From assembly GCF_029946185.1 (NCBI RefSeq), contig NZ_JAQSEA010000294.1:1-59453 (forward strand): 59,453 bases of DNA, written 5' to 3'. Below the pieces are notes generated by a model. That model was not told the DNA's origin, made no database searches, and saw only the letters and a list, made by a program, of their open reading frames with translations. Every line of letters starts with the position of its first letter. The stretch's first letter is position 1. The DNA comes from Prosthecobacter sp. (lineage in GTDB: Bacteria; Verrucomicrobiota; Verrucomicrobiia; Verrucomicrobiales; Verrucomicrobiaceae). The position numbers and the translations under genes are program-made. Positions 31,468 to 59,453 of this stretch are shown in pieces.

Positions 31468-31498
31468 AGATGGCCTCCGTGGTGCTGATAGGGAGGGC

Positions 31499-33994: not shown

Positions 33995-35134
33995 ATGAAC
34001 GCCACCACCGTCCATCCCCCCACCGTAGTTGCTGCGGTGCCTGCTCCGAAGCGTGAACCCCTGCGCCTGCTTGCGTTTGCCTCCTTGCTGGAAAAACTCG
34101 GCCTCGGCTATTTCAGCCCCTTTGTCCGCATGGCTGCCCGCTACGATGTGAAATCGCAGTGGCAGCAGGTGGTGACGAACACGGTTTTGCCCGGCGTCGT
34201 GATCATCCTGTTCATGGGATTTTGGACCCTGTGCTCAAGCATGGTGCATACGGACAGCCAGCGCATCCCGACTCCCACGGAAACCTGGAAGGCATGGCAG
34301 GGCATGCGTGAATTTGCCCGTAACGAGGCCGTCAAGAAACAGGAGTTTCTTGCCAGCATGTCCACGATTGCCGCCAAGTGGGATACGAAGGCAGCGGAGG
34401 CCAAGGCCGCAGGCAATGCGGCTTCGGCCACCAAGTTTGGCGAAAAGGCTGAGAGCTACCGCAGCAAATACTACGCTGGCCCTCCGACCTTCGGCACACA
34501 GATCATGACCAGCCTGCTCACCGTGGCGATCGGCATCGGTGCGGCCACCTTGATCGCCGTGCCGCTTGGCTTTCTTTGTGGATTGAGCCCGCGCTTCAAT
34601 CTGGCGATGAATCCGATCATTCAGATCTTCAAGCCGGTGTCTCCGCTGGCCTGGTTGCCCATCGTGTTCGTGTTTGTGACGGCGCTCTATCAGCCAGCCG
34701 GGGATGCCAGCATCTCGCGGGCGCTGCTCATCTCCGCAGGCACGGTGACGCTGTGCTCGTTGTGGCCCACGTTGATCAATACAGCAGTCGGTGTGGCCGG
34801 GGTGGATCGTGACTACCTCAATGTGGCCAAGGTTCTCAAGTTAAACGCCTTTCAACGCATCTGGAAAATCATCCTTCCCGCCGCGTTGCCGCTGATCTTC
34901 ACCGGCATGCGTCTTTCCATCGGCGTCGGCTGGATGGTGCTGATCGCCGCTGACATGCTGGCGCAGAATCCTGGGCTCGGCAAATTCGTCTGGGACACCT
35001 TCCAGAACGGCTCCACCGAAAGCATGGCGCAGATCATCGTCGCTGTGTTCGCCATCGGTTTCATAGGCTTCGTCCTCGACCGCATCATGCTGGCCCTGCA
35101 GCGCCTCGTCACCTTCGGCGGTCAGACACTCTAA
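33995..35134 (+). CDS. nrtB: nitrate ABC transporter permease NrtB-like, with extra loop
   Basis: A 379-residue permease, about 100 residues longer than typical NrtB (about 275). Helices are at about 55-80 and 165-370. The cytoplasmic EAA loop is present (YLNVAKVLKLNAFQRIWKIILPAALPLIFTGMRLSIG). Between helix 1 and helix 2 lies an extra segment (about 85-165), mostly charged and Ala-rich and likely coiled coil (AKWDTKAAEAKAAGNAASATKFGEKAE). It would face the periplasm and could contact the binding protein; this is inference. It is 34 bp after nrtA and 13 bp before the ATPase gene. Confidence 0.9.
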   Translation: MNATTVHPPTVVAAVPAPKREPLRLLAFASLLEKLGLGYFSPFVRMAARYDVKSQWQQVVTNTVLPGVVIILFMGFWTLCSSMVHTDSQRIPTPTETWKAWQGMREFARNEAVKKQEFLASMSTIAAKWDTKAAEAKAAGNAASATKFGEKAESYRSKYYAGPPTFGTQIMTSLLTVAIGIGAATLIAVPLGFLCGLSPRFNLAMNPIIQIFKPVSPLAWLPIVFVFVTALYQPAGDASISRALLISAGTVTLCSLWPTLINTAVGVAGVDRDYLNVAKVLKLNAFQRIWKIILPAALPLIFTGMRLSIGVGWMVLIAADMLAQNPGLGKFVWDTFQNGSTESMAQIIVAVFAIGFIGFVLDRIMLALQRLVTFGGQTL

Positions 35135-35147
35135 CCTCACCTGCGTC

Positions 35148-36938
35148 ATGTCCTTGATTGAACTCAACAACGTATCCGTGGGTTTCGGTGCCGCCAGCAC
35201 GCGCACTGAGGTGCTGCGTGACATCAACCTCACGCTGAATGAGGGCGAACTCGTTGCCATCGTCGGCTACTCCGGCAGCGGCAAATCGACCTTAGTCAAT
35301 CTCATCGCCGGTCTGGTAATGCCTGACAAAGGCGCGGCATTGTTTGATGGAAAACCGATCACCGGCCCCGGCCCGGAGCGTGGTCTGGTGTTTCAAACCT
35401 ACGCCCTGCTCCCCTGGCTGAGCGTGCGGGGCAATGTGGCGCTGGCAGTGAACCAGGTCTGCCAGAACGAATCGCTGGAGCAGCGCAATCTGCGCATCAC
35501 CGATGCCGTGGATCAGGTCAAGCTCACGCCCGCGCTGCGCAAGCTCCCCAGTGAACTGTCCGGCGGCATGCGCCAGCGTGTTTCGGTGGCCCGTGCTCTG
35601 TCGTTCGCGCCGCGGGTGCTGCTGCTGGATGAACCTCTGAGCGCACTCGATGCCCTCACTCGTTCGGAATTGCAGGATCAAATCCTGGAACTGAAGCAGC
35701 GCACCGGCCAGACCATCCTGCTCATCACCAATGACGTCGATGAAGCCTTGTACATGGCTGACCGTGTCATTCCATTGACCATGGGCCCTGCCGCCACCTT
35801 TGGCCCGAGCGAGGAGATCCACCTGCGTCGTCCGCGTGATCGTGCAACCTATCTGGCAGAGCCGACCGTGCTCGCCGCGAGAAAACGCCTGCTGGATTTC
35901 CTCATCGCCCAGCGCGCGGACAATGCGGAAAACGTCTCCATCCGCGCGCTGCCGGATGCCGACCCGGTGGACATCTCCCAGTCACGTCCCACCTTTGCCT
36001 TTCGCTGGATTCGTGACCGCAATGAGCTGGAAACCGGCGAACCCGCCGTGCCGAAGCACAAGGAAAGCCACAAGCCCGCTGAAGGCTTCGTCACCATCAG
36101 CCAGCTCGGCAAAACCTACCCGACGCCACGCGGCGCAGCGGTGATCGTGCGAGACTTTGATCTGCACATCAAGCGCGGCGAACTCGTCTCCATCATCGGC
36201 CACAGCGGCTGCGGCAAGAGCACCGTGCTCAGCATGGTTGCCGGACTTTCGAGCATCACCGACGGTGGCGTCATCATCGACGGGCGCGAAATCGACGGTG
36301 CCGGGCCGGATCGCGGCATGGTGTTTCAAAGCCCGAATCTGCTGCCCTGGATGAGCGCCTTGGAGAACGTCATGATGGGCGTGCGCCAGGTGTTTTACCA
36401 CCTCAACAAGAAGGAGCAGCGCGACATCGCCTGCCATTATCTGGAAACGCTCGGCCTCGGTGGCAGCTTTGACAAGAAGCCCGGCACGTTGTCCCAGGGC
36501 ATGCGCCAGCGCGTCGGTCTCGCCCGCGCGTTTGCGTTGCAGCCGAAGGTGCTGCTGCTGGATGAACCCTTTGGCATGCTCGACAAGCTGACCAAACTGG
36601 AGCTGCAGGACGTGCTGCTCGACCTGCGTGACCGCACCGGCACCACGGCCATCATGGTCACGCATGATGTGGATGAAGCTATCTATCTCTCCGATCAGGT
36701 CGTGATGATGAGTGACGGCCCCGCCGCCACCGCCGGTGAAATCCTGCACATCTCCTTTCCGCGTCCGCGTGACCGCAAGGTGCTGATCGAAAGCCCCGAG
36801 TGGCATCACTACCGCGAGCACCTGCTCTCCTTCCTCGAAGAGCGCGCTGACGTGCGTGGGGTGACTACGCACCACAGTCGCGCTGCGGGGACACTGCTCC
36901 GTCGCCGCGCATCCCTTTCCCTGCAAGCCGCCGCTTAG
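35148..36938 (+). CDS. nitrate ABC transporter ATPase with two fused nucleotide-binding domains
   Basis: A 596-residue protein made of two ABC ATPase domains. Domain 1 (about 1-250): Walker A GYSGSGKST near 39, signature LSGGMRQRV near 136, Walker B VLLLDEPLSALD. Domain 2 (about 310-570): Walker A GHSGCGKST near 350, signature LSQGMRQRV near 447 (Gly to Gln at the third position), Walker B VLLLDEPFGMLD. A linker of about 60 residues joins them. In cyanobacteria NrtC and NrtD are separate proteins and NrtC has a C-terminal receptor domain; here the two ATPases are one chain and no receptor domain is fused. It powers NrtB. Confidence 0.93.
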   Translation: MSLIELNNVSVGFGAASTRTEVLRDINLTLNEGELVAIVGYSGSGKSTLVNLIAGLVMPDKGAALFDGKPITGPGPERGLVFQTYALLPWLSVRGNVALAVNQVCQNESLEQRNLRITDAVDQVKLTPALRKLPSELSGGMRQRVSVARALSFAPRVLLLDEPLSALDALTRSELQDQILELKQRTGQTILLITNDVDEALYMADRVIPLTMGPAATFGPSEEIHLRRPRDRATYLAEPTVLAARKRLLDFLIAQRADNAENVSIRALPDADPVDISQSRPTFAFRWIRDRNELETGEPAVPKHKESHKPAEGFVTISQLGKTYPTPRGAAVIVRDFDLHIKRGELVSIIGHSGCGKSTVLSMVAGLSSITDGGVIIDGREIDGAGPDRGMVFQSPNLLPWMSALENVMMGVRQVFYHLNKKEQRDIACHYLETLGLGGSFDKKPGTLSQGMRQRVGLARAFALQPKVLLLDEPFGMLDKLTKLELQDVLLDLRDRTGTTAIMVTHDVDEAIYLSDQVVMMSDGPAATAGEILHISFPRPRDRKVLIESPEWHHYREHLLSFLEERADVRGVTTHHSRAAGTLLRRRASLSLQAAA

Positions 36939-36970
36939 CTGAATCAACAACACACCCACTCCACACACAC

Positions 36971-38371
36971 ATGAAAAGACTGCTCCCGCTTTTGCTTGCG
37001 ACCACATCGCTCGCACTCGCCCAAACCCCCGCTCCCAAAACCACGGTGCCCGTCCCGGTGCCAGGCTTTACGCTCGCCCCTCCACCTTCCACGTACACCC
37101 CCATGAAGATGGGCAAGTTCACCTTCGATGTACAGGAAAAAATGCGCTACGAAGTCCGTGAGAACAACTTTGACTTCAACAGCGCGGTCAACAGTCCGCA
37201 GGACGACGCCTGGCTGCTCCAGCGCTTTCGCCTGGGCTTGGGCTATGACATCAACCCATGGATCAAGCTCTATGTGCAGGGCCAGGACGTGCGGGAGATC
37301 GGCGGAGACCGTGGCCACACCATTGGTGTCAATGGTGCCGAAGGAGATGACATCTTCGACATCCTCAAAGCTTACATTCAAATTGGAAATCTCAAGAAGG
37401 GCTTCAGTTCCGTCCTCGGCAGGCAGTTCCTGTCCTATGGAGATCAGCGACTGCTAGGGCCGCTGGAGTGGGCCAATCAGGCGCGCACTTTTGACGCCTT
37501 CAAGTTCCGCTACACGGCCAGCCAATGGTCCTTGGATCTTTTCACCGCCAGTCCGGTGAACTTCACCAACAACCAGTTCAACAAATCGGACCTGATCAAC
37601 CAGTATGACCACCGCAATGCCTTCATCAGCGGAGCCTATCTCAGCACGCTCTTTGTCCCCTTCAACACCACCACGGATTTCTACGTGCTTCACAACCGGG
37701 ATGACGGCACAGCAAACTTCGGCCCATCGAGAGGCGCGACCAGCTTTGTCACCCTAGGCACCCTTTGGAAAGGGGACCCTAAAAAGCTTCATGGCTTTGA
37801 CTATGACACTGAGATGGACTTTCAGACCGGCAAGGTCGGCGGACGCTCTCTCACCGCTTACGCGGGCCACTGGGGTGCTGGCTACAACTGGCTCAAGCAC
37901 GCCTGGAAGCCACGTTTTGGCTTGCAGTATAACTATGCCAGTGGTGACGGAGATCCCAATGACGGCAAGGTAGGCACCTTCCAGAATCTGTATCCAACGA
38001 ATCATCTCTTCTACGGTTACATGGACACCACGGCGTGGATGAACGTGCACAACCCCCAGGTGAATTTCAGCTTCATGCCGACGCCCAAGATGAAGGTGAT
38101 GCTGGACTACCATCTCTACTGGAACGCCAGCAATTCTGACGCTTGGTATCGCGCCAATGGAGCCACGAAGGTACGTCCTCTCAGCGCCGCCGCGAACAAC
38201 GCCAGCAGCTTCAGAGGCCAGGAGTTTGACATCACGATGAGCTACAAGCTCAACCCCCACGTGGGCTTTCTGGCAGGCTACAGCTACTTCGTCGCCGGTG
38301 ACTACCTGAAGCAGACCGGATCTGGCAGCAATGCACAGTTCGGCTACGTGCAGGTGCAGATCGACTTCTGA
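36971..38371 (+). CDS. alginate-export-type outer membrane porin
   Basis: A 466-residue protein with a signal peptide (MKRLLPLLLATTSLALA) and a beta-barrel-like C-terminus ending YVQVQIDF (terminal Phe). Typical pieces are FTFDVQEKMRYEVRENNFDF near residue 50, LLQRFRLGLGYDINPWIKLYVQGQD near 95, VLGRQFLSYGDQRLLG near 150, and alternating strands to the end, as in the AlgE/alginate-export family widespread in Planctomycetes and Verrucomicrobia. Located between the nitrate ATPase (33 bp) and narK, it probably passes nitrate or nitrite through the outer membrane rather than alginate. That role is inferred from context only. Confidence 0.88.
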   Translation: MKRLLPLLLATTSLALAQTPAPKTTVPVPVPGFTLAPPPSTYTPMKMGKFTFDVQEKMRYEVRENNFDFNSAVNSPQDDAWLLQRFRLGLGYDINPWIKLYVQGQDVREIGGDRGHTIGVNGAEGDDIFDILKAYIQIGNLKKGFSSVLGRQFLSYGDQRLLGPLEWANQARTFDAFKFRYTASQWSLDLFTASPVNFTNNQFNKSDLINQYDHRNAFISGAYLSTLFVPFNTTTDFYVLHNRDDGTANFGPSRGATSFVTLGTLWKGDPKKLHGFDYDTEMDFQTGKVGGRSLTAYAGHWGAGYNWLKHAWKPRFGLQYNYASGDGDPNDGKVGTFQNLYPTNHLFYGYMDTTAWMNVHNPQVNFSFMPTPKMKVMLDYHLYWNASNSDAWYRANGATKVRPLSAAANNASSFRGQEFDITMSYKLNPHVGFLAGYSYFVAGDYLKQTGSGSNAQFGYVQVQIDF

Positions 38372-38386
38372 TCTGCCGGACTCCCA

Positions 38387-38430
38387 GCGCCTGCCGCTGC
38401 AGGCATTCAAGTGGCAGGCGCCAGGGTTTT
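38387..38430 (+). terminator. hairpin plus short T run between porin and narK (partial terminator or attenuator)
   Basis: GCGCCTGCC (38387-38395) pairs perfectly with GGCAGGCGC (38413-38421), followed by CAGGG and four Ts (38427-38430). It lies 16 bp after the porin stop. A weak T run suggests partial termination, which would lower expression of the downstream genes relative to uptake genes. Confidence 0.55.
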
Positions 38431-38548
38431 AGGCATGAAAGTTATTCATCAATATTATAAAAAGGATTCAAGGCGTTCGTTGGATGTCCTGGCACACTTG
38501 GCACACGGGCGGCTCATGGAAACAGCAGATCATCCACAAGCCCCCTCC

Positions 38549-39754
38549 ATGAAAATAGCCGATCTCAAAACCTCCGGACACTGGCCGACGCTCCTCACCT
38601 CGTTTCTGTACTTTGATGTCAGTTTCATGGTCTGGACCATTCTCGGGGCGCTGGGGGCGCAGATTGGGACCTCGCTCGGGCTCAGCGCGCAGGAGAAGGG
38701 GTTGATGGTCGCGGTGCCCTATCTTGCGGGTGCGTTCATCCGCATCTTCCTCGGGATGCTGGTGGACCGCATCGGTGCCAAGAACACCGGTATCATGGCG
38801 CAGCTCATCGTCATCGCGGGCATGACCACGGCGTGGCTCACGGGGTTGCATCATTTTTCCCACACGCTCATGCTGGGCGTGGTGCTCGGGGTTGCCGGTG
38901 CCAGCTTTGCTGTGGCGCTGCCTCAGGCAGGGCGCTGGTATCCGCCGCACATGCAGGGCCTGGTGCTCGGACTCGCGGGTGCGGGGAATGTGGGCGTGGT
39001 CATTGATGCGATCATGGCTCCACGGCTCGCCGTCATCTATGGCTGGAATGCCGTCTTTGGCCTGGCGCTCATTCCGCTGGTCCTGGTGCTCGCCATTTAC
39101 ATCATCTTTTCCAAGGAAGCGCAGGTGAAGGTGAAGAAGAAGACGCTCAAGGATTATGTGAACTTGCTGAAGGAAAAAGACGCGCACTGGTTCTGCTTTT
39201 TCTACACCATCAGCTTTGGTGGTTTCTCCGGCCTCGCTGCATCCCTCATCATCTACTTCACTTCTGAGTTTCATCTCGCGCCAGTGGAGGCCGGCACCTG
39301 GGCGGCGATGTGCACGCTTGTGGGAGCCCTGGGCAGGCCAGTGGGCGGTGCGCTGGCGGACCGCCTCGGGGGCATCCGCGCGCTGCATGTCTTTTTCCTC
39401 GTCGCCGCGCTGGCGCTTGTGCTGGCGGCTTGTTCGGGAACGATCGGGATGTGCGCCTTTGGTTTCTTCCTGGCATCCTGCGCCTTCGGCATGGCGAACG
39501 GCTCGGTCTTCCAGCTACTGCCGCAGCGCTTTGCCAAGGACATCGGTGTGATGACCGGCCTCGTGGGCTGTGGTGGTGGTCTCGGCGGCTTCATGCTCGC
39601 CAGTGCGCTGGGATATTCCAAGGGGTTCACGGGCAGCTACCTCGCTGGGCTGCTCGCCTTTTCCACGCTGTGTATCCTCGCACTCATCGGGCTCAATTTC
39701 GTCAAGCTGCGCTGGCGCACCACCTGGGGCGCTCTGGCTGAGGCACGCATCTAA
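38549..39754 (+). CDS. narK: MFS nitrate/nitrite transporter (NarK/NNP family)
   Basis: A protein of about 401 residues with 12 membrane helices. NNP-type features: the start LKTSGHWPTLLTSFLYFDVSFMVWTILGALG, the RIFLGMLVDRIGAKNTGIM loop (MFS motif A), AGAGNVGVVIDAIMAP in helix 5 (nitrate signature), a Gly-rich helix 11 (GCGGGLGGFM). It carries nitrate or exports nitrite. Alternative in-frame ATGs exist at 38516 and 38435; the latter lies just past the hairpin and gives a Lys-rich head unlike the family. The ABC route and NarK in one island suggest high- and low-affinity uptake. Confidence 0.88.
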   Translation: MKIADLKTSGHWPTLLTSFLYFDVSFMVWTILGALGAQIGTSLGLSAQEKGLMVAVPYLAGAFIRIFLGMLVDRIGAKNTGIMAQLIVIAGMTTAWLTGLHHFSHTLMLGVVLGVAGASFAVALPQAGRWYPPHMQGLVLGLAGAGNVGVVIDAIMAPRLAVIYGWNAVFGLALIPLVLVLAIYIIFSKEAQVKVKKKTLKDYVNLLKEKDAHWFCFFYTISFGGFSGLAASLIIYFTSEFHLAPVEAGTWAAMCTLVGALGRPVGGALADRLGGIRALHVFFLVAALALVLAACSGTIGMCAFGFFLASCAFGMANGSVFQLLPQRFAKDIGVMTGLVGCGGGLGGFMLASALGYSKGFTGSYLAGLLAFSTLCILALIGLNFVKLRWRTTWGALAEARI

Positions 39755-39776
39755 TCCACTTACTTGATCTGAATCG

Positions 39777-41408
39777 ATGAAAGTACTCACCACCAGTCAC
39801 GGCATGGCAAGAGAAGAGGGGATTCCCTCTTCCGACGCCTTCGACGTGCGTGCGTGGGATCAAACAGTCATCGCAGTACTCAGTGACGGCGCAGGCACCG
39901 GCGCACCCGCACGTGAGGCGGCCCACCGCGCGGTGAGCTCGCTCATTGAACACTACAGCGCACGTCCGCGCTCGTGGTCGCCGCAGCAGGCACTCACCAC
40001 TTTTGCCCGCATCCTTAACCAGTCACTGTATCAGGAGTCACAGGTGCGCTATGAGCGCACGGAGATGGTGGCCACGCTGGCGGCGGTGGTGATCGATGGC
40101 GACACGCTGCATGGCATCAATCTCGGAGACTCCGCCGTGTGCCTGTGGCGTGAGGGGCAGCTTAACACGCTGTCCACCGCGCACGTGGAGGCGGAGCGCA
40201 GTCACGTCCTCACGCGTGCGCTCGGAATGAGCGCGGAGATCGAGCCGACCTGCTTCACGCTGACTTTGCAGGACGGGGATGTGGCCTTCCTCTGCTCTGA
40301 TGGTGTGTCTAATCATGTGTCAGAGACGGAGCTGGCTGCAGCGCTCTCCCGCCACAGTTCGGCCCGCAGCATTGTGCTGACTGCGCGCCAGCAGGCGAAG
40401 GAGGAGACGCTGGATGACATGAGCGCACTGGTGCTGGACATTCAGCAAACGGGCAGGCTGCACGCCATGAATGCACGCACGCTCACCATTCCTGCGGTAC
40501 TGAACAAAGGCGACGAAATCGACGGGTATGAACTGATGCGCTCGTTTCATGGCACCAGCCGCGTGTGGCTGGCGGAAAAAGACGGCCACCGTGTCGTCAT
40601 GAAATTTGCACCGGTGGAGGCCGTGGACAGCCCGCAGCACCTCGAAGCCTTCACGCATGAAGTCTGGAACGCCACGCGTGCGCAGTCGGTGCACTTCGTC
40701 CGTGCGTATGAGCCGCCGGGGCAGACCATGCGCTACTACCTCATGGAGTTTGTGGACGCGCCCAGCCTCGCGGCGGTGCTGCGTGAGCGCGTGCTCTCGG
40801 TGGACTCCGCCATCGCTCTGGGGAAATTTCTCGCGGAGGCCGCGCAGACGCTGCTGCGCCTGGACCTCGCGCATGGCGACATCAAGCCGGAGAACATCCT
40901 CTGCATCGGCGACTACACGCGGCTGACTTTCAAGCTGGTGGACCTTGGCAGCGCCGCCGCCATCTTCTCCATCTCATCGCGTGCAGGCACGGCGAGCTAT
41001 CTGGCACCGGAACGTTTTCACAACGCGCCCATCAGCGAGCGCACGGAGATCTGCGCTATTGGCGTCACGTTGTATCAGGCGCTCACTGGCAGGCTGCCCT
41101 ATGGGCAGATCGAGCGCTTTCAAACGCCCGTCTTCCATGCGGCGAAGCGGCTGTCCAAAATCAATCCCAACATCCCCTCATGGCTGGAGGCCGTCATTCA
41201 CCGCGCCATAGCCATCAAGCCACAGCGTCGATACCAGCACTGCTCCGAGTTGACGCATGATCTCAATCATCCCGAGCGTGTGCAGCCTTTCTATGAGGCG
41301 GACACGCCGCTGTTCGAGCGCAATCCGGTCGCCTTCTACAAGGCCGGCTTCTTCATCTTTCTGCTCTCCACGATCTGGCTGGCCTTCAAGCTGCTTTCCC
41401 AGAAGTAA
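39777..41408 (+). CDS. PP2C phosphatase-Ser/Thr kinase fusion protein, tail-anchored
   Basis: A 543-residue fusion. Residues 1-225 are a PPM phosphatase: LSDGAGTG, INLGDSAVCLW, FLCSDGVSN and DDMSALVLDI, giving the metal-binding Asps. Residues 250-495 are a Hanks-type kinase: Lys in VVMKF near 272, catalytic HGDIKPEN near 364, DLG at 387 (in place of DFG) and GTASYLAPE near 403. A hydrophobic helix (about 518-540) anchors the C-terminus in the membrane. Genes of this layout sit in nitrate-assimilation clusters of several phyla (for example near nasA/nirB in pseudomonads), but their substrate is not known to me. It would set phosphorylation of a transporter or enzyme in the island. Confidence 0.92.
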   Translation: MKVLTTSHGMAREEGIPSSDAFDVRAWDQTVIAVLSDGAGTGAPAREAAHRAVSSLIEHYSARPRSWSPQQALTTFARILNQSLYQESQVRYERTEMVATLAAVVIDGDTLHGINLGDSAVCLWREGQLNTLSTAHVEAERSHVLTRALGMSAEIEPTCFTLTLQDGDVAFLCSDGVSNHVSETELAAALSRHSSARSIVLTARQQAKEETLDDMSALVLDIQQTGRLHAMNARTLTIPAVLNKGDEIDGYELMRSFHGTSRVWLAEKDGHRVVMKFAPVEAVDSPQHLEAFTHEVWNATRAQSVHFVRAYEPPGQTMRYYLMEFVDAPSLAAVLRERVLSVDSAIALGKFLAEAAQTLLRLDLAHGDIKPENILCIGDYTRLTFKLVDLGSAAAIFSISSRAGTASYLAPERFHNAPISERTEICAIGVTLYQALTGRLPYGQIERFQTPVFHAAKRLSKINPNIPSWLEAVIHRAIAIKPQRRYQHCSELTHDLNHPERVQPFYEADTPLFERNPVAFYKAGFFIFLLSTIWLAFKLLSQK

Positions 41409-41436
41409 AGCCCCTCCTTTCCCCACCGCTGCCCCA

Positions 41437-43071
41437 ATGAACTTAGTCCCCGTCATTCCTGACAACGCACCCTTCTCCAATGAACAGCGAGCCTGGCTCA
41501 ATGGCTTCCTCGCGGGTGTTCTTAATCGCGGCTCAGGAGCCGCCGCCGTGTCTGCGCCGCAGGCGGCCATCACGCCGCTGCTCATCGCCTTTGGCAGCCA
41601 GAGCGGCAATGCGGAAAGTTTGGCCAAGCGGCTGGCCAGGGAAGCATCGGGTCGGGGTTTTACAGCGCGAGCTGTGGGCCTCGACTCGCTGCAACCCGCC
41701 GATCTCATCAAGGAAAAAAACATCCTCCTCATCACCAGCACCTGGGGGGAGGGAGACATGCCGGACAATGCGATCTCCTTCTGGGACAGCATCAATCAAA
41801 ACGGCAGCAGCCCGAAACTGGATGGCGTGCAGTACAGCGTCCTGGCTCTGGGCGACAAAAACTATGGCGATACCTTCTGCCTCGCTGGCAAGAAATTGGA
41901 CGCCAGACTCGAAGAGCTGGGGGCCAAACGCATCGTGGACCGGGTTGACTGCGATGTGGAATTTGACGCGCAGGCGAAGACTTGGAGCGCCAATGCCTTC
42001 ACGGCCTTGAGCGGAGATTCAGCAACAGCATCCGTCGCGGTCGTGACAGCAGTGGAGGAAGAAGAGACGGGCTATTCCAAAAAGAAGCCGTTCCCCGCCA
42101 GGCTCATCGCCAACGTTCCCCTCAACAGCCGGGGCAGCAGCAAAGACACACGGCATATTGGTTTCTCGCTGACTGGCAGTGACCTGACCTATGAGGTCGG
42201 AGACGCGCTCGGCGTGTTTGTGCAAAACTGCCCTGAAGTGGTCGATGCGGTCATCGCTGCGCATGCGTTTGATCCGCAGGCGGTGGTGGCTCTGCCAGAC
42301 GGCGGCAACGCATCACTGAGAGATGCGCTCATCAAACACTACGAGGTGAGAACCCTTTATGGAAAAGGGGCTGAGGACAATCTGACGCTCACGGCTTTCG
42401 TGGAAAATCTGCGCAAGCTGCAACCCCGCCTTTATTCGATCGCTTCGAGCATTAAGAAGCATGAGAATGAAGTGCATCTCTGCATCGCTGCGGTCCGCTA
42501 CAGCACCGATGGGGTGGTGCACAAAGGCGTGGCTTCCACCTTCCTCGCGGATCGTCTGCCGCTCGAAGAAACGACGGGGATCTACTTCCACGCTGCAAAT
42601 CATTTTCGCCTGCCTGCGGATCTCACAAGGCCGGTCATCATGGTCGGTCCGGGGACGGGCATCGCGCCGTTCCGTGCCTTCCTCGAAGAGCGCGAGGCGA
42701 CGCAGGCTTCTGGAAAAAACTGGCTGTTCTTCGGCGATCAAAAACGCGTCAGCGACTTTCTCTACCACGACCAGATCATTGAGTGGGTGCAGAAGGGGCA
42801 CCTCACACGCCTCGACACCGCCTTCAGCCGTGATCAGGAAGAAAAGATCTACGTGCAAACCCGCATGCTGCAGGCCGCCACGGAACTCTGGCAATGGCTG
42901 GAGGAGGGGGCGCACTTCTATGTGTGCGGCGATGCCAAACGCATGGCCAAAGATGTCGATGATGCGCTGCACAGCATCATTCAAACCGCCGGAGGCAAAT
43001 CTGCTGATGAAGCCGCCGCTTATGTCACTCAAATGAAAAAGGAGAAACGCTATGCCCGCGATGTCTATTGA
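41437..43071 (+). CDS. CysJ-like flavoprotein reductase of the nitrite/sulfite reductase type
   Basis: A 544-residue diflavin reductase (E. coli CysJ has about 599). An N-terminal 20-residue motif (NAPFSNEQRAWLNGFLAG) is followed by a flavodoxin domain (IAFGSQSGNAESLAKRLA at about 48, LITSTWGEGDMPDNA, ALGDKNYGDTFC), the FAD domain (LQPRLYSIASSI, RLTP region) and an NADPH domain (MVGPGTGIAPFRAFLEER, YVCGDAKRM) with the final YARDVY. It passes electrons from NADPH through FAD and FMN to a siroheme partner, here the next gene, with which it overlaps by 20 nt. The ATG at 41437 fits the family; no Shine-Dalgarno is seen. Confidence 0.88.
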   Translation: MNLVPVIPDNAPFSNEQRAWLNGFLAGVLNRGSGAAAVSAPQAAITPLLIAFGSQSGNAESLAKRLAREASGRGFTARAVGLDSLQPADLIKEKNILLITSTWGEGDMPDNAISFWDSINQNGSSPKLDGVQYSVLALGDKNYGDTFCLAGKKLDARLEELGAKRIVDRVDCDVEFDAQAKTWSANAFTALSGDSATASVAVVTAVEEEETGYSKKKPFPARLIANVPLNSRGSSKDTRHIGFSLTGSDLTYEVGDALGVFVQNCPEVVDAVIAAHAFDPQAVVALPDGGNASLRDALIKHYEVRTLYGKGAEDNLTLTAFVENLRKLQPRLYSIASSIKKHENEVHLCIAAVRYSTDGVVHKGVASTFLADRLPLEETTGIYFHAANHFRLPADLTRPVIMVGPGTGIAPFRAFLEEREATQASGKNWLFFGDQKRVSDFLYHDQIIEWVQKGHLTRLDTAFSRDQEEKIYVQTRMLQAATELWQWLEEGAHFYVCGDAKRMAKDVDDALHSIIQTAGGKSADEAAAYVTQMKKEKRYARDVY

Positions 43072-44806
43072 ACCACCGCCCGTTGCTCCGCCAATGAACG
43101 CTGATTTTTCCAGCGAGCAGAAGCGCTACCTCGAAGGATTTTTTGCCGGCATCGCCGCTGGCGGAGTGTCGTTCGTCGATCTCGCTCCTGCACCCGCTGC
43201 TGCGGCACCCGCCGGACCCTCACTGGATGACCTCACCAAGGAGGAGCGCATCAAGCGTGAGCTGCACCCCTTTGATGCCATCGAGCAACTGGTCATGGAT
43301 GCACGGTGGAACTCCAAGCCCGAGCCGGAGTCGATCTTCCGCTACAAATGGAACGGGCTCTTCTGGCTCAATCCCGTCAAAGACGGCTACATGTGCCGGC
43401 TGCGCATTCCGGGTGGCATCGTGAAAAGCTATCAGCTCCGCGAACTCGCCGCCATCGCCCGCGAGCTCACCACGGGTTACATTCAGATCACCACGCGGAA
43501 CAATTTCCAGATCCGCCTCATCGAGCCGAAGAACTGCCCCGAAGTGCTGCGTCGCATTCAGGGCTGTGGTCTTCATTCCAAAGGAGCGGGAGCGGACAAC
43601 ATTCGCAACATAACGATGAACCCATGCGCGGGGTATGATCCCTATGAGATCATCGATGTGCGCCCGCTGGTGAATGAACTTGCCACGCTGATCATTGCTT
43701 CCAAAGAGTTCTACGATCTGCCACGCAAGTTCAACATCGCCTATGACGGCGGTGGTCTCATCTCAGCTGTAGAAGACACCAACGACATCGGCGCGAGTGC
43801 TGTGAAGATTGGTGAGAACAGCGAAGGCATCGAGCCGGGTGTGTATTTCCGCATCGCGCTCGGTGGTGTCACCGGTCATCAAACCTTCGCCAGTGACTGG
43901 GGAGTGGTTGTGAAGCCTGAGCAACTGAACGACGTCATGGTCGCCTTGCTGCGCGTGTTCATTCAATTCGGCGACCGCACCAACCGCAAAAAGGCGCGCT
44001 TCAAGTATGTCATCGAAGACAAGGGGCTGGATGGCGTGCTCGTCGAAGCTGAGAAGTTCCTCAAATTCAAACTCACCCGCCTCTCACCCACCGCACCCTG
44101 TCAGGCTAAGCGCGAGTTCTCGCAGCAGGGCCACTCGCATGTTGGGACCTTCCCGCAGAAGCAGGACGGCCTGGTGTACATCGGCGCGACGGTGCCCGTG
44201 GGCCAAATGACCGCGAAGCAACTCGACCGCATCGCCGATCTTGCCGACAGCTACGGCTCGGGAGAAATCCGGCTCACGGTTTGGCAGAACCTTATCATCC
44301 CTAACATCAAGAGCGCCTATGCAGTCACCGTGGCGAAGTCACTAAAGAAGCTTGGTTTTCCGAGTGAGCAGTCGAATCTCAAAAGTGGTTTCATTGCGTG
44401 CACGGGCAACAAGTACTGTAAATTTGCCGCCAGCGACACCAAGGGCCACGCCATCGCCATGATGGAGTATCTCGACAAGCGCGTGAAGCTCGACAAGCCC
44501 GTGAACATTCACTTCACCGGTTGCGCGCACTCCTGCGCCCAGCACTTCATGGGAGACATCGGCCTGCTCGGTACCAAGGTGAAGTCTGAAAGCGGAGAGG
44601 GCTACCACATCACTGTTGGGGGTGGCTTTGGCGAGAATCGCAAAGTTGGGCGCCAGATTTTCAGCGGGGTAGAATTTGAATCACTCGGCAGCACGCTGGA
44701 GGCGATGCTGAAAGGCTATCTGGACAAGCGCACTGCGGACGAAAGCTTCCATGCTTTTTGCAACCGGCACACGGTGGGGCAACTGCAGGAGGTGTTCAGT
44801 CTCTGA
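43052..44806 (+). CDS. siroheme-[4Fe-4S] nitrite/sulfite reductase (NirA-like)
   Basis: A 584-residue protein. It has two ferredoxin-like half domains (GIVKSYQLRELAAIARELTTGYIQITTRNNFQIR near 130) and the cluster/siroheme ligands CTGNKYC (Cys450, Cys456) and CAHSC (Cys491, Cys495). It reduces nitrite to ammonium with six electrons (or sulfite to sulfide). The island context favours nitrite. Electrons would come from the overlapping flavoprotein gene rather than ferredoxin. An N-terminal motif (NADFSSEQKRYLEGFFAG, residues 15-32) closely matches that of the flavoprotein. The ATG at 43052 is backed by AAGGAG at 43039-43044; a second ATG is at 43061. Confidence 0.9.
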   Translation: MPAMSIEPPPVAPPMNADFSSEQKRYLEGFFAGIAAGGVSFVDLAPAPAAAAPAGPSLDDLTKEERIKRELHPFDAIEQLVMDARWNSKPEPESIFRYKWNGLFWLNPVKDGYMCRLRIPGGIVKSYQLRELAAIARELTTGYIQITTRNNFQIRLIEPKNCPEVLRRIQGCGLHSKGAGADNIRNITMNPCAGYDPYEIIDVRPLVNELATLIIASKEFYDLPRKFNIAYDGGGLISAVEDTNDIGASAVKIGENSEGIEPGVYFRIALGGVTGHQTFASDWGVVVKPEQLNDVMVALLRVFIQFGDRTNRKKARFKYVIEDKGLDGVLVEAEKFLKFKLTRLSPTAPCQAKREFSQQGHSHVGTFPQKQDGLVYIGATVPVGQMTAKQLDRIADLADSYGSGEIRLTVWQNLIIPNIKSAYAVTVAKSLKKLGFPSEQSNLKSGFIACTGNKYCKFAASDTKGHAIAMMEYLDKRVKLDKPVNIHFTGCAHSCAQHFMGDIGLLGTKVKSESGEGYHITVGGGFGENRKVGRQIFSGVEFESLGSTLEAMLKGYLDKRTADESFHAFCNRHTVGQLQEVFSL

Positions 44807-44809
44807 GCC

Positions 44810-46402
44810 ATGATTCGTGATCTGGAGCGCTCGATCTCAGCTGGCGGTTCCTCCGTCAGCATCATCGACGCGGCCCTCCGCGAGCAGCAGACGCTGCGCA
44901 CGCCTGTCGCGCTTTTTGCTGAAGAGTACGATGCCAAATCCGTCCGCGAACGCTTCACTCATCTCATTCCGCTCAGCAAGCCGAGTCCCGGTGAGCAGTA
45001 TGGTTTCGAGGTGAATCTTGATGCCTGCACCGGCTGCAAGGCATGTGTGGCTGCCTGCCATTCGCTGAACGGACTCGATGAGGGCGAAAGCTGGCGTGAT
45101 ATGGGCCTGCTCGTGGGTACACGGAAGCAGCCCTATCTGCAAACCGTCACAACAGCCTGTCATCACTGCGCCGATCCTGCCTGTGCGGAAGGCTGTCCGG
45201 TGCTGGCCTATGATAAAGACGCCGTGACCGGCATCGTGCGGCATCTGGATGATCAGTGCATCGGCTGCAGCTACTGCATTTTGAAATGCCCGTATGAGGT
45301 GCCGAAGTTCAATCTGAAGCGCGGCATTGTACGCAAATGCGACATGTGCCAGGGTCGGCTGGCGGAAGGTGAGGCGCCTGCCTGTGTGCAGTCCTGCCCA
45401 AATGAAGCGATCAAAATCAAAGTGGTGAAACTCGATGCCGTGCCGGATCGCGGCAGCATCATCGCGGGCGCATTTGATTCGAGCTACACACGGCCCACCA
45501 CGACCTACGTGTCGGCGCAACCAACTCCTGCCGCTGCCAGACCTGCGGATGCCGGACGGCTGGATCTCGATGAGGCGCATCACGATCCGCTCGCGTGGAT
45601 GCTGGTGCTCACGCAGATGAGCGCCGGGGGATTCATCGGCTGCGCCATCGCCATGTGGTTGAATCTGCTGACACTCTCACAGGCCGCCATCACGAGCGCC
45701 GCAGCGCTCACCCTAGGTTTGATTGGTGTCGCTTTGAGCACGCTGCATCTGGGGCAGCCGCTGAAAGCCTGGCGTGCCTTTCTCGGCTGGCGCAAATCAT
45801 GGCTGTCACGCGAGATCATGGCCTTCGGTGCTTTGCCGGCAGGTGGTCAGGCCATCTTCGCCACCTGGTGGCTGGGAAATTATGAGTGGATGAAGCTCGC
45901 CGTCACCGGCACCGCCGCCGCTGCCGTGATCGCCGTCTGGTGCTCGGTGATGGTCTATGTGGACACACGCAGACCGTTTTGGTCGATGCCCAATGTGGCC
46001 GCCAAATTCCTCGGCACCATGCTGCTGCTCGGAGCTGGATTGTGCTCTCTAGTCTGGAGTTGCATCGGCCTAGCGATCGCGGCATGGGCCATGGCATTCG
46101 CACTGATCTTTCGCTGGAGTTTGTCGATCTGGGAAATTTCCAGCTACCGCCGTGCCTTGGAGAATGAAGAATGCCTGTGGCACAAGTCGGCACGCATATT
46201 GCAGAAACATCTCGCCAAGCGGATCGAACTGCGTGGTCTGCTGCTTATCGCCACAGGTCTGGTGATTCCCGTTATTATTTCCGCCGGTGCTTCGGTGCCA
46301 TGGATGTTCGGTCTTTCATTGCTGCTCATGTTTGGCAGCCAGTTGATGGAGAGGTTGTATTTTTTCACCGCCGCTGCAGGTTCAAAGATGCCGGGGAACT
46401 GA
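44810..46402 (+). CDS. fused DmsB-DmsC-like electron transfer subunit (4x [4Fe-4S] plus membrane anchor)
   Basis: A 530-residue fusion. After about 70 extra residues, the ferredoxin-type part holds four cluster motifs: [12 protein letters not shown] (Cys73 on), [26 protein letters not shown] and CDMC...CVQSCP. From about residue 260 there are eight hydrophobic helices as in DmsC/YnfH anchors. DmsB/DmsC-type proteins take electrons from quinol to a molybdoenzyme. Here it is followed at 2 bp by NasA, so it should feed NasA from the quinone pool. There is no Tat signal on NasA, so its clusters would face the cytoplasm. Confidence 0.9.
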
Positions 46403-46404
46403 CT

Positions 46405-48597
<2,193 letters not shown>

Positions 48598-54912: not shown

Positions 54913-55878
54913 CTACTTCTGAGTTTGCGCCTGCTGGGCAAACCGCGTGGTCACTCCCTTGGCCTTCGCCGCAGTCTCTTCACCGCGCTTTCTGCCCAGT
55001 ACACACATCGCTGTCGCCAGGGCATCACTGGTGGTGCAGTCCGGGGCAATGACGGAACAGGCGATGCGTTCCTTGAGGCCGAGGCCCGTGAAGGGAGAGA
55101 CAATGTGGGAGTAGCGTGTGCCGTCGATTTCGGTGTACTGGTAGAGATCTCCAGAGGTGGATACGGCGCAGTTGTGCAGGCGCACGGTGGTGAGGTCTTC
55201 TTCTGCGTTGGCACTGGCAAACTGCCGCAGCTTGATTTCCCAGGCGTCAGTGCCGGGTGGGGGATCGCCGATGGCAATGTCGCCACCCGCCATGACGAGG
55301 GCGCGGGTGATGCCGTGCTCGCGCAGTAGACGCAGGCCTGCATCGGCGGCGTAGCCTTTGGCGATGCCGCCGAGGTCGAGCAGCATGCCGGGCTTCAGCA
55401 GCGTGATGGTGTGTGATTTCGCATCCAACTGAACGGCGTGCCAGTCGGTGGAGGTGAGCGCCTGCTGCAGGCGGTCGGCGGGCGGCAGTTTGTGGGTGCG
55501 TTTGGTGCGCCGCCAGAGGTGGGAGAGATTGCCGCAGGTGATGTCGAAGGCCCCCTCGGTGAGGCGGGAGAGTTCGAGGGCGCGTGAGACGATGCTGAAG
55601 AGATCCTCGCTGGCTTTGAAGGGTTTGTTGGGGCCGGTGTTGCAGAGCTGCATGAGCTCGCTGTTAGGCTCGTAGTCGGAGCAGACGGCGTTTAGGTCGG
55701 CGATGCGTTTGAAGGCGGCATCAGCGGCGGCACTTGCCTGTGCCTGAGTCTCCGCATGCACGGCAATGCGGAAGTTGGTGGCCATGAGGGGCGCGGAGAA
55801 ATCGAAACGCTCCAATGCTTGTGCGGGGATGGCACAGAGGAGCAGGAAAAGGAGGGCAATGGAAGATACGGAACTCAC
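54913..55878 (-). CDS. apbE: FAD:protein FMN transferase (ApbE family)
   Basis: A 321-residue protein. A signal peptide (SVSSIALLFLLLCAIPAQA) without lipobox predicts a periplasmic form. ApbE motifs: the N-terminal FSAPLMATNFRIAVHAE, SELMQLC, the EGAFDITCGNLSHLW region, MLLDLGGIAKGYAAD near 165, VMAGGDIAIG near 195, and YSHIVSPFTG with a late DALATAMCVLG. It attaches FMN from FAD to Thr residues of substrate proteins such as Nqr or Rnf subunits. No flavinylation target (Rnf or Nqr subunit) adjoins. It is 75 bp from the roadblock-like gene with a terminator between, so it is a separate unit. Confidence 0.93.
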   Translation of the reverse strand: MSSVSSIALLFLLLCAIPAQALERFDFSAPLMATNFRIAVHAETQAQASAAADAAFKRIADLNAVCSDYEPNSELMQLCNTGPNKPFKASEDLFSIVSRALELSRLTEGAFDITCGNLSHLWRRTKRTHKLPPADRLQQALTSTDWHAVQLDAKSHTITLLKPGMLLDLGGIAKGYAADAGLRLLREHGITRALVMAGGDIAIGDPPPGTDAWEIKLRQFASANAEEDLTTVRLHNCAVSTSGDLYQYTEIDGTRYSHIVSPFTGLGLKERIACSVIAPDCTTSDALATAMCVLGRKRGEETAAKAKGVTTRFAQQAQTQK

Positions 55879-55953: not shown

Positions 55954-56352
55954 TTACCAAGCCGGTTCGGCGTGCAGCGCGTCGGCGAGATTGAGGGAGG
56001 GAGTGGAGACGGGGCGGATGCGGGTCGTGATGGGCTTCGCCAGTCCCTCACAGGCAGTGCGGAGGGTAGGGATGACGTCGGTGTTTTGGCAGCGGACGAG
56101 GAGTACGCGGCGCTGCGGCAGACTGTGGAGGTAAATGACGCCGCCGTCGTGCTGCTGGATGATTTCCAGGCAATCGCCGCTGCCGGAGCGGCGGCCTAGC
56201 TCGGAGGCGGCAGAGAGCGTGGCATGCGCCAGCACGAGAATGGCGGCGGTGGGCGGCTCGGCAGCGCCAGCGCAATCGAGCAGCCGTCCGGCGTCATCGG
56301 CGATGGCGATCTGAATGACATCCGGAATGGAGGCGAGGGCGGTGAGTTCCAT
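55954..56352 (-). CDS. roadblock/LC7-like protein, MglB-type
   Basis: A 132-residue protein with a roadblock-like pattern: MELTALASIPDVIQIAIADDAGRLLDCAG at the start (sheet with helix 1), a central helix AAILVLAHATLSAASELG, and the strand pair GDCLEIIQQHDGGVIYLHSLPQRRVLLV. In Myxococcus the roadblock protein MglB is the GTPase-activating partner of MglA and sets cell polarity. It lies 21 bp after the MglA-like GTPase gene, so a partner role is likely. The fold assignment rests on pattern and context only. Confidence 0.75.
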   Translation of the reverse strand: MELTALASIPDVIQIAIADDAGRLLDCAGAAEPPTAAILVLAHATLSAASELGRRSGSGDCLEIIQQHDGGVIYLHSLPQRRVLLVRCQNTDVIPTLRTACEGLAKPITTRIRPVSTPSLNLADALHAEPAW

Positions 56353-56373: not shown

Positions 56374-57027
56374 TTACGCTGCGAGAGCTTGGGTGGGAAA
56401 CTCGTGAGGCGTGGCGGAGGTGCTGTCTGCAGGCGCGGTGCGGAGGCGGAACTGATGTAGCACGGCTTGGGAGATGGCGTTGAGCGTTGCCAGCACATTG
56501 CGGCCGCTGTGTGCGTCAGATTCGAAACTGAGGAATGGCGTGGGCCGGTTGTTGAACAGGTATTCAAGGTACTCGACCGGCGCGGCATTGGGCAGGTCCC
56601 GCTTGTTGTATTGGATGACGATGGGCAGGCGATCAAGCGCGCTGCCGTTCATGCGCAGATTGGCTTCCAGACTTTGCAGGGACTGCAGGTTGTCGCGCTG
56701 GCGGTCCATTTGTGAATCTGCCACAAAGACCACGCCGTCGGCCTGCCGCAGGACGAGCTGCAGTGTGGCATTGTAGGTGATCTGGCCGGGGACCGTGTAG
56801 AGGTGAAAGGTGGTCTTGTAACCGGGAAGCGCATCAGCCTCGACGGCGAGGAAGTCGAAGAAGAGGGTGCGATCTTGCGCGGTTGAGAGCGAGACGAGGT
56901 CGCTGCAGCCATTGGGGTCCAGCTTGGCGTGGATCTGCTGGAGGTTGGTCGTTTTCCCGCTGAGCGGACTGCCGCAATAGACAATCTTGAAGCTGACTGT
57001 GTGGTCGTCGTGATTGATGCTGGGCAT
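56374..57027 (-). CDS. MglA-like small GTPase
   Basis: A 217-residue GTPase. Walker A is GSPLSGKTTNLQ near residue 19, switch II is the TVPGQITYNATLQLVL segment (TVPGQ rather than DTAGQ, an MglA trait), and the specificity motif is QYNKRDLP near 138. MglA proteins govern polarity and motility machinery in Myxococcus and others. It stands between a large roadblock protein upstream (62 bp) and a small roadblock protein downstream, forming a likely three-gene operon. Confidence 0.9.
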   Translation of the reverse strand: MPSINHDDHTVSFKIVYCGSPLSGKTTNLQQIHAKLDPNGCSDLVSLSTAQDRTLFFDFLAVEADALPGYKTTFHLYTVPGQITYNATLQLVLRQADGVVFVADSQMDRQRDNLQSLQSLEANLRMNGSALDRLPIVIQYNKRDLPNAAPVEYLEYLFNNRPTPFLSFESDAHSGRNVLATLNAISQAVLHQFRLRTAPADSTSATPHEFPTQALAA

Positions 57028-57089: not shown

Positions 57090-59453
57090 TTAACCCAGCA
57101 TACGGGCGAGTTCGCGGGCGATGAGAGTGATCTTGTCGCGCATGCCGACGGAGGGTTCGGCATCGTGCAAGACGCCGATGATGGAGTCTCCGGGAAAGCA
57201 GAAAGTCAGCAAGCGTCCGCCCGCATTGAGAGTGAATGTTTCCGCGCCTTCAATGCCGATGAGCGGAGCCAGGCCACGCAACTGGCGGGCGATGTCTGGT
57301 GCCTGGCGCTGGAATTCCAGCGCATCCGCCTTGGTTGAGTCCGCGTGGCTGAGAACGTGTGAGCCATGCAGGCAGACGCAGGCACTCAGGCCATGCTGCA
57401 GAGCCAGCAGTTCGACGACCCGTGGCGCCGTAAGGTTCTCCTCGGTGCCCAGCAAGGCCCGCAGCAGGAGCTGATCCGTCTGAGTGTCGAGCGGGGAAAG
57501 GCCGAGGAAGGAATGCTTTGCCGCCGTCATTTTAGCAGGCGTCGCAGTTGGCGTAGCCTGAGCTGCGGGTGAGGGAGACGCAGCCGGAGCAGACTTGGGT
57601 TCTGGCCTAGCCTGAGGGGGAGCTGGCGCAGGAAACAGCGGCACTGCTTGCGCGTTGAACAATCCACGAGAGGCAGGCTGTGGTTCGGGGGGCGCAGGTG
57701 TGGAGAAAGACGGGATTTCTTCCAATGCTGGAGCGAAGGAAGGTGGTGGTTGGAAGGGTGTAGGTGCCGAAGCGGCAAACATGCTGCTGGCTGGCTGGGT
57801 CTCGGGCGCTGGTGCAAATGCTGACTGCTGCGGTGTGGCAACCTGTCCGAGCAATTGGGCGCTGTTAAAACCTGATTCCGCAGTTGCTCTGGCTAGCATC
57901 GGGCCTGTGGCGGATGAGGCAAAAGGATCAAAAGGTTTGGCGGTGCCGGCAAGAGGTGTACTTGGAGGGGGCGCAGGTTGTGCCACAGGGGAAGGCAGCG
58001 AGGCACCAAAGGATTGAAACGCTCCGGCGAGTGGTTGCAGAGACGTCGATGGAGAGGCCGCTGTCAGTTGCGCAGGAGGGAAGACAAATGCCGGTGAGAC
58101 TGGAGGCTGTGCAGCTTCGGCGGGTGGTGCGGGCGGCGGAAACGCAAACTGACCTGGACCGCTAGCAGGCTGAGGGGAGCCAAAGGCTGATACAGGAGCT
58201 GAAACAACTGCGGGAGGGGAAAACGCAAACTGTGGCGACGCACCGCTAGGCTGAGCGAATCCGAAGGCAGATACGGGGGCTGAAGCCGCTGCGGGGGGAG
58301 AAAACGCAAACTGAGCTGGTCCACCGGTGGGCTGAGGGGAGCCAAAGGCTGACACCGGTGCAGAAGCCACAGCAGGCTGGCTTTGTGCAAAAGGAGACAA
58401 TGCCGCGCCGAACATCGGCGTCTTCGGAGGTGACTCCGCAGGTGCAGGCGCGAAAGAAGCCGCGAACAAGGGCTGCGCATTTTGCGTTGGCTGCTGGGGT
58501 GGATTGGGTTGCACCGACAGGCGATTGGGCACCGCGGGCGGGCTGGGGCTGCCAAAAGCGGAAGGTGCCGCGGGTGCCGCCGACATATTGGTGAGCGAAT
58601 GAAACACCTCGTTTTGCGGCAGCCTGATCTTGAAATCACGCTTTGTATTGGTGAGCGTGTTGCGGAAGCCGAGATCGGAAATGCCATCAATGAGCATGCC
58701 GAGTTCCACAATAATGATACCGGAAGAAATCTGTTCGTTCAACACACTGGCCTGCACGCTGGTGGTGATCCACGTCGGCAGGGTGGCCGGATTAAAACCG
58801 AGCTCTTCGACACTGTAACCGGCTAACACCGCAGCGAATCCTAATTTGGCCATGCCTGATGTGGCAGGCATATTGCTTTTTGCTGCCGCTTGTTGCTGCG
58901 GGGCAAAGGCGTTCGGCGCAGGCGCTAGTGAGACGAAGGCATTCTGGGCAGGAGGTTCGGCCTGCGGCGCTGCCTCTTTCATTTTAGAGACGAAGGAGGA
59001 ATCAAATGGCATTGCTTGCTGCGCCGTTGCCATATCCGAAGGTGCGGATGCTTTTTGCTGCGATGAAGGTGTAAATAAAGTGGAAATGGATGACTGAGGC
59101 TTAATGACTGCCGGAGTCGAAGCCGACCAATTTTCCAGCGGTGCAGGGGCGAAAGGGGCGGCGGATGGCGCAGCTGCTGCGGGCTGTTGTGACATGCTGC
59201 CGAAGGGCGACGCAGGCGAAGAGGCGGGAGCAGCCGCAGCTGGCTGCTGTAGCATGCTGCCGAAGGGCGAGCCGTTGGAATTCGCGCCCAAGGAGAAGGG
59301 CGACGCAGGCGAAGATGCGGGAGCAACTGCTGCGGGCTGCTGTGGCATGCTACCGAAGGGCGAGCCGTTGGAACCCGAGCCCAAGAAGAAGGGCGACGCA
59401 GGCGAAGATGCGGGAGCAACTGCTGCGGGCTGCTGTGGCATGCTACCGAAGGG
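57090..59453 (-). CDS. giant FG-motif-rich, disordered protein with C-terminal roadblock domain (partial)
   Basis: At least 788 residues; the gene starts beyond the right edge. The visible part is mostly Pro/Ala/Ser-rich and disordered, with ten FG dipeptides (SPFGS, AFGSP, MFGA and SFGA types), counting the one at the very edge. Two sets of tandem repeats occur: 31-residue units at the edge and 27-residue units in the middle. A short globular insert (LGFAAVLAGYSVEELGFNP to RDFKIRLPQNEVFHSL, about residues 205-290 of the visible part) has no family I recognise. The final 130 residues (FLGLSPLDTQTDQLLLRALLG to ARELARMLG) look like a roadblock domain. It lies upstream of the MglA-like GTPase. 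Confidence 0.85.
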   Translation of the reverse strand, partial: PFGSMPQQPAAVAPASSPASPFFLGSGSNGSPFGSMPQQPAAVAPASSPASPFSLGANSNGSPFGSMLQQPAAAAPASSPASPFGSMSQQPAAAAPSAAPFAPAPLENWSASTPAVIKPQSSISTLFTPSSQQKASAPSDMATAQQAMPFDSSFVSKMKEAAPQAEPPAQNAFVSLAPAPNAFAPQQQAAAKSNMPATSGMAKLGFAAVLAGYSVEELGFNPATLPTWITTSVQASVLNEQISSGIIIVELGMLIDGISDLGFRNTLTNTKRDFKIRLPQNEVFHSLTNMSAAPAAPSAFGSPSPPAVPNRLSVQPNPPQQPTQNAQPLFAASFAPAPAESPPKTPMFGAALSPFAQSQPAVASAPVSAFGSPQPTGGPAQFAFSPPAAASAPVSAFGFAQPSGASPQFAFSPPAVVSAPVSAFGSPQPASGPGQFAFPPPAPPAEAAQPPVSPAFVFPPAQLTAASPSTSLQPLAGAFQSFGASLPSPVAQPAPPPSTPLAGTAKPFDPFASSATGPMLARATAESGFNSAQLLGQVATPQQSAFAPAPETQPASSMFAASAPTPFQPPPSFAPALEEIPSFSTPAPPEPQPASRGLFNAQAVPLFPAPAPPQARPEPKSAPAASPSPAAQATPTATPAKMTAAKHSFLGLSPLDTQTDQLLLRALLGTEENLTAPRVVELLALQHGLSACVCLHGSHVLSHADSTKADALEFQRQAPDIARQLRGLAPLIGIEGAETFTLNAGGRLLTFCFPGDSIIGVLHDAEPSVGMRDKITLIARELARMLG
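58125..58367 (-). repeat. three tandem 81-bp coding repeats
   Basis: Three consecutive units of 27 codons (starting 58367, 58286 and 58205) with consensus SAPVSAFGSPQP, a Gly/Ala linker, then QFAFSPPA. They are within the FG-rich roadblock gene. Units differ at the middle residues, so the array is older than the edge repeat. Confidence 0.85.
59163..59453 (-). repeat. 93-bp tandem coding repeats, continuing past the window edge
   Basis: Units begin at codons at 59441 and 59348 (31 residues each), then a shortened one of 20 at 59255 and a further start at 59195. Consensus MPQQPAAVAPASSPASPF, then a Gly/Ser/Asn linker and SPFGS. The last 12 bases of the window encode another PFGS, so the array goes on outside. 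Confidence 0.88.

Follow-up and report, generated by a model that had tools for sequence, protein, structure and literature searches.

A long protein with a predicted roadblock C terminus adjoins MglA in Verrucomicrobiota and carries SPF-rich linkers in one lineage

The window, that is the whole stretch of 59,453 nucleotides analysed here, represents bases 1-59453 of a 103563-base scaffold and ends inside a long gene on the minus strand, whose open frame (57090..59453) runs off the window end and encodes the C-terminal 787 aa of a long composite roadblock protein. The right edge (59453) abuts a scaffold gap of 100 N (C294:59454-59553) located within a tandem array of 31-aa SPFSLG...SPFGS units (59202..59453, minus strand), which is cut by the window end and displays, in its window part, a period of 93 bp, 2.7 copies and 93% match. 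The 31-aa units resume past the gap, where the 5' part of the gene was recovered (C294:59554-60523, minus strand); the gene starts at C294:60523 (L038:5524) and opens with MSFSFRGLFQ. The gap length is nominal, and therefore neither the array copy number nor the frame across the gap is fixed by the assembly; the sequences of relatives run uninterrupted through this region. A close MAG record (L066), whose C-terminal domain is 95% identical, likewise begins mid-gene.

After the 31-aa array, the protein displays the second copy of a domain of ~85 residues, here called AB (58587..58865, minus strand; AF2 pLDDT 87, four beta-alpha units), followed by a Pro/Ala/Ser-rich, charge-poor linker with Phe as almost the sole aromatic residue (linker 2, 57504..58586, minus strand). 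Within linker 2 lies an array of 27-aa, SAPVSAFGSPQP-like units (58128..58370, minus strand), a DNA-level repeat with a period of 81 bp, 3.0 copies and 73% match. The protein ends in a domain (57093..57503, minus strand) for which AF2, Foldseek and VIA predict a roadblock/LC7 fold, with MglB as the nearest solved folds. For the visible protein, a sequence-only reading of this DNA had reported ten FG dipeptides, a pair of tandem arrays (31- and 27-residue units) and a gene continuing beyond the edge: the 787-aa frame does contain 10 FG, both arrays are found at the DNA level, and the N-terminal part with its MSFSFRGLFQ start lies past the gap.

Two genes follow on the same strand. The first, 62 bp downstream of the long gene (56374..57027), encodes an MglA GTPase, as that reading had proposed for the neighbour: phmmer matches it to Myxococcus MglA (6hjh) at E 1.4e-51, residues 2-193 are aligned, and so are the P-loop, DRTLFFDF, TVPGQ and NKRDLP. 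The second, 21 bp downstream of mglA (55954..56352), encodes a short single-domain roadblock protein that scores 21.2 bits (E 2.5e-4) against Robl_LC7 (PF03259), whose cut-off is 23, and the short roadblock genes of relatives lie above this cut-off in 8/10 cases tested. An ApbE-type FMN transferase gene (54913-55878) comes after these; BLAST matched it in 10/28 relative loci (own included) and 12/31 named loci, all of them close relatives. Elsewhere in the window, a gene fusing a PP2C phosphatase and a Ser/Thr kinase (39777-41408) was noticed by eye inside a putative nitrate assimilation cluster (31439-48597).

The C-terminal 151 aa of the long protein were matched in 27/37 genomes, own and relatives together, and in 20/24 genomes of the same genus, own included. 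Matches were also obtained in 31 named records, most of which bear the titles Verrucomicrobiaceae, Verrucomicrobia or Prosthecobacter and one Brevifollis gellanilyticus; these titles of the closest named relatives agree with the PVC-type host that had been suspected at the outset. Within the genus the protein is ~850-1200 aa long, and complete proteins display the order MSFSFRxLFQ, domain A (~85 residues), linker 1, copy B, linker 2 and C-terminal domain, with linkers of up to ~460 residues and a conserved GFxSxQLLG motif in linker 2. The N-terminal MSFSFRxLFQ was found in 45/47 listed sequences, a count biased towards the motif because a sequence had to show either a recognised start or the motif to be listed, and several genomes are in it twice; the pattern is absent from L059 and L063, and from the open-frame start of L082, which is outside this list. 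An amphipathic membrane anchor was considered for this motif and found unconvincing, with a hydrophobic moment of 0.11-0.36 in the genus and values of up to 0.53 in three members of the order outside it. In the same genus, a 374-aa frame (L056/L095) keeps the N-terminal motif and the roadblock end, with no AB copy and no adjoining MglA.

The C-terminal domain of the window's protein escaped Pfam and PDB sequence profiles. No Pfam family was listed for the long protein of the window, for which the PF03259 cut-off is not reached, Robl_LC7 was listed for 0/23 relatives, and a Pfam scan of the own genome matched only the short neighbour, under the cut-off. A profile search of the PDB with the C-terminal alignment found no MglB. 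The AF2 model of the domain, built with 29 sequences (pLDDT 88.7, pTM 0.83), has the helix and strand order of a roadblock, and the first 16 rows of a Foldseek search with it are all Myxococcus MglB chains, with E from 4e-5. In VIA, roadblock, MglB and Ragulator chains fill the first seven rows (Z 11.7-11.0), by a modest margin since Z is still about 10 for chains of phytochrome GAF/PHY and profilin. Among distant homologues, the C terminus of the long protein passes the Pfam roadblock cut-off in 3/10 cases (L177, L188 and L160), with 3 weaker matches and 4 without any; these calls are independent of the profiles built in this analysis. Altogether, structure prediction and fold search support the roadblock end that had been read from the sequence, to which Pfam is blind at this locus, and the long protein is predicted to end in a roadblock fold.

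The fold of AB is also a prediction. Its AF2 model (pLDDT 87.4) displays four strands, each followed by a helix, and no convincing relative was found in the PDB by Foldseek (best E 3.0), by VIA (0/86 chains at Z>=2) or by a 32-member AB profile (no chain at E<=1). When the 32 members were run against Pfam, no family matched more than one of them and none fell below E 0.02. Five AB proteins of the class gave no NCBIfam entry at all, and a sixth, which comes from another class, gave just a ComEA-like stretch. AB is thus absent from the family libraries searched and possibly adopts a new fold. The two copies do not match each other significantly when their genus-level profiles (A3 and A4) are compared directly; iterated profiles of each copy detect both copies in most proteins. 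As only these wider iterated profiles unite them, the case for a common origin of the two copies depends on distant intermediate sequences and on profiles whose training set was the same.

We then considered the gene order across the class, where MglA was found in 56/189 genomes of the sample. One MglA locus was inspected in each of 40/56 MglA-positive genomes, comprising 20 with an earlier roadblock-profile match and 20 more (19 unmatched, and G039 with a weak match on another contig). A long roadblock protein is encoded directly upstream of mglA in 40/40 loci and a short roadblock gene directly downstream in 36/40, the remaining 4/40 showing no short roadblock gene. AB is detected in 35/40 long proteins, with at least two copies in 26, and no copy was found in 5/40; our own genome is scored with a single copy because the first one lies past the gap. 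The profiles used for these counts were iterated on sets including the same loci, and the open frames of the long proteins span 458-1055 aa, some of them cut by contig ends or the gap. Among nearer relatives, MglA stands beside the long gene in 25/28 fetched loci, with L062 scored as a miss for want of a BLAST match, and in 30/31 named loci, two sets that overlap. The module consists of a long AB-linker-AB-linker-roadblock protein, MglA and a short roadblock protein, in an order kept across the class.

Beyond the class, in a phylum sample of 194 genomes, AB (E<=1e-3) was detected in 13 and MglA in 15, and all 13 are among the 15 (Fisher 1.8e-18, kinship ignored). Both lie on one contig in 12/13 genomes, the exception being G321. 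Six loci of other classes (L160-L165) hold the AB gene and mglA on one contig, and the two are divergently oriented there. A roadblock match was obtained in 3/6 of their AB frames; the remaining three were either truncated at a locus end or unmatched. A helix-hairpin-helix stretch, ComEA-like in L160, was noticed just before the roadblock region of long proteins beside MglA in L160, L163 and L187. Conversely, the roadblock profile matched 39 class genomes, and in 17/39 MglA was undetected at E<=1e-20. In nine such loci (L131, L133-L139 and L141) no MglA was found within the fetched 9-9.5 kb; their proteins are shorter (frames of 417-650 aa) and match the roadblock profile, with at best a weak or partial AB match. 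Since three loci of MglA-less genomes have partial or weak AB-like matches, the restriction of AB to MglA-bearing genomes depends on the threshold. Co-occurrence with type IV pili was set aside as evidence for the output of the module: the PilT family is present in the own genome, and it is found in 187/189 class genomes, including MglA-less ones, so that it lends no support to a pilus output.

The linkers were analysed by motif counts. The own fragment holds 10 FG against 2.0 expected, a number reached in 0/1000 composition-matched shuffles, and the FG excess noticed in the window protein is thus more than composition. When 28 sequence pieces were compared with shuffles (p<0.05), FG was enriched in 12/28 and SPF in 25/28; folded domains were left unmasked in several rows of this test, and the count in linkers delimited by two AB copies is the better one. 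For the latter, 28/35 proteins were used, leaving aside 7 that are cut by contig ends or have no two AB copies. Linker 1 (7625 residues in the 28 relatives) contains 134 FG against 35.5 expected (3.8-fold) and 264 SPF against 13.7 (19-fold); linker 2 contains 75 FG against 26.8 and 33 SPF against 13.9, totals that are not independent because the sequences are related. The residue after SPF in linker 1 is mainly S (83), G (77) or A (65); here and for FG outside SPF, Gly numbers are half of the raw tally, which scores each Gly twice, and as such they agree with the linker counts. At Phe outside SPF, FG is still found 57 times against 14.9 expected in linker 1 and 68 times against 25.5 in linker 2, so that the FG excess is not merely a by-product of SPF. 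Hence the enriched unit is SPF more than FG, and some of the excess of both is genuine.

The FG dipeptide itself is poorly kept. The sequence-only reading had looked to conserved FG spacing in homologues; spacing is more even than in 95% of shuffles for FG in 4/13 sequences, for Phe in 13/28 and for SPF in 8/26, and at the Phe columns common to at least half of the relatives FG occurs in 0-15/28. It would also have been undermined by homologues lacking the array, and most of those sampled come close: SPF occurs 0-1 times and FG 0-5 times in each of the 33/40 class proteins that belong to orders other than the window's. At least two SPF precede the roadblock domain in 7/7 genomes of the window's family and in 0/33 others (all other orders). 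FG counts overlap between the two groups, the family having 1-11 and the 33 others 0-5, and the charged fraction is 0.06-0.18 in the family versus 0.11-0.25 elsewhere. In other families of the same order, 4/6 proteins have 3-5 SPF, above shuffles, and two have none, with 0-7 FG in all six. The own linkers, taken as three pieces, contain 6-8% Phe and 0-1 Tyr or Trp residue per piece, with a charged fraction of 0.014-0.051. Informally, a Pro/Ala-rich tail ending another frame of the window (25001-26479) was seen by eye to have no Phe, a single contrast to these Phe-rich linkers.

Several explanations of the array were weighed. It might provide docking sites for a putative folded partner, in the manner of the short linear motifs of eukaryotic adaptors and with no condensate, a proposal we regard as tentative. 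In favour of docking, SPF is a short motif that recurs, usually with S, G or A after it, and most of its occurrences lie between the two AB domains (264 in linker 1 against 33 in linker 2). However, the array was not detected in the 33 class genomes of other orders, although these share the rest of the module. Neutral low-complexity drift, in which the linker is a mere spacer and SPF or FG units spread by tandem duplication without function, appears unlikely. It would account for arrays that are tandem DNA repeats, for the variation of linker 1 in length (209-417 aa) and FG number (1-11) among the 28 relatives, and for the near absence of SPF in those 33 genomes. Yet at least four SPF are present in linker 1 of 28/28 relatives, with Tyr/Trp at 0-3, and five Phe columns are kept in 25-28/28, although an aligner readily piles up Phe where sequence complexity is low, and the relatives compared are close to one another.

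The sequence-only reading had likened the protein to FG nucleoporins, and a corresponding condensate would form if the linkers self-associated via FG/SPF stickers into a dense phase that concentrates MglA at a pole or membrane. The linkers do resemble Nup98-type FG nucleoporins in being charge-poor, disordered, Phe-containing repeats, the Nup98 FG domains also being charge-depleted (PMC9918544), and the SPF and FG excess of linker 1, the even Phe spacing in 13/28 and the scarcity of Tyr and Trp speak for such stickers. However, Nup98 has about 8 FG per 100 residues in a GLFG-dominated pattern (PMC9918544), about four-fold more than the ~1.8 per 100 in linker 1 of the 28 relatives, where LFG accounts for only 13/134 FG and SPF is the unit. 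Unlike Nup98-type FG nucleoporins, the linkers are Pro/Ala-rich, are not conserved as FG and are joined to roadblock and AB domains. With the Gly mostly absent after conserved Phe, FG evenly spaced in few sequences and SPF near-absent from sampled homologues outside the order, the likeness to FG nucleoporins was rejected, and a condensate of this kind is improbable.

We favour the reading that the long gene encodes the long subunit of the MglA module, quite probably a composite MglB-like regulator or scaffold of MglA. In this model, the predicted C-terminal roadblock would form a homodimer or pair with the short roadblock protein, and the dimer would bind the neighbouring MglA and set its GTP state, as MglB does. 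The N-terminal MSFSFRxLFQ and the AB domains may recruit the complex to a cellular site or an effector, with the linkers as flexible tethers, so that the long protein would both regulate and position MglA, possibly in partnership with the short roadblock. In the window's family, and to a lesser extent in the rest of the order, the linkers acquired a high Phe content and repeated SPF(S/G/A) motifs; in that family they also became charge-poor. FG is in part SPF with a following Gly and in part reflects a broader tendency for small residues to come after Phe. The SPF linker could then act as a sticker or docking array, its motifs serving as weak self- or partner-binding stickers. Type IV pilus polarity is a plausible output at most.

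Carried to its furthest, the model would describe a phylum-wide, undescribed MglA regulator with an obligate pair of long and short roadblock proteins, in which AB, of a fold not seen before, places the GTPase at a site in the cell, and in which the linker of one lineage is an SPF-sticker condensate, analogous to FG-repeat phases in its physics and not by descent; we consider this full version very improbable. The recurrent three-gene module nonetheless names a likely MglA regulator in Verrucomicrobiota, together with an unlisted domain worth solving. Comparing modules with and without the SPF linker would offer a clean view of the contribution that a sticker-rich linker makes to a switch based on a small GTPase, and AB, detected at E<=1e-3 solely in MglA-bearing genomes of the phylum sample, provides a direct handle.

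MglA-type Ras-like GTPases control front-rear polarity in Myxococcus, and their partner MglB is a single small roadblock protein. The module resembles the MglA/MglB switch of Myxococcus xanthus and Thermus in that its MglA is highly similar, the predicted roadblock is nearest to MglB and the genes are adjacent, the long gene lying 62 bp upstream of mglA here and next to it in 40/40 class genomes examined. Unlike MglB, the roadblock is the end of a ~850-1200 aa protein with AB domains and long linkers rather than a small single-domain protein, and a second, short roadblock follows mglA. No description of a long AB partner of MglA was found in the open-access literature searched, which omits most subscription papers, and on verrucomicrobial MglA or roadblock proteins, only PMC4316618 and PMC4476040, each available in part, were found relevant there.

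The available part of the first of these lists Verrucomicrobia among the holders of Group 5 MglA and describes 1:2 MglA:MglB systems in Group 3, in a few members of Group 1 and in duplicated conservons (Wuichet and Sogaard-Andersen 2014, PMC4316618). One MglA with two roadblock genes is also what we find, although a long composite roadblock partner is absent from that part of the account. In Methylacidiphilum infernorum, of the same phylum, an MglA-like gene adjoins a short roadblock gene, and HGbRL is a roadblock fused to another domain (PMC4476040, available part), both features being reminiscent of our module; the fusion partner there is a globin, unlike in the long AB protein, which is no part of the available account. 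Finally, RomR of M. xanthus likewise belongs to a polarity module, and its ends are folded while its linker is long, disordered and Pro-rich (PMC12719032); its receiver domain and Glu-rich C-terminal region take the place that AB and roadblock domains occupy in the long protein.
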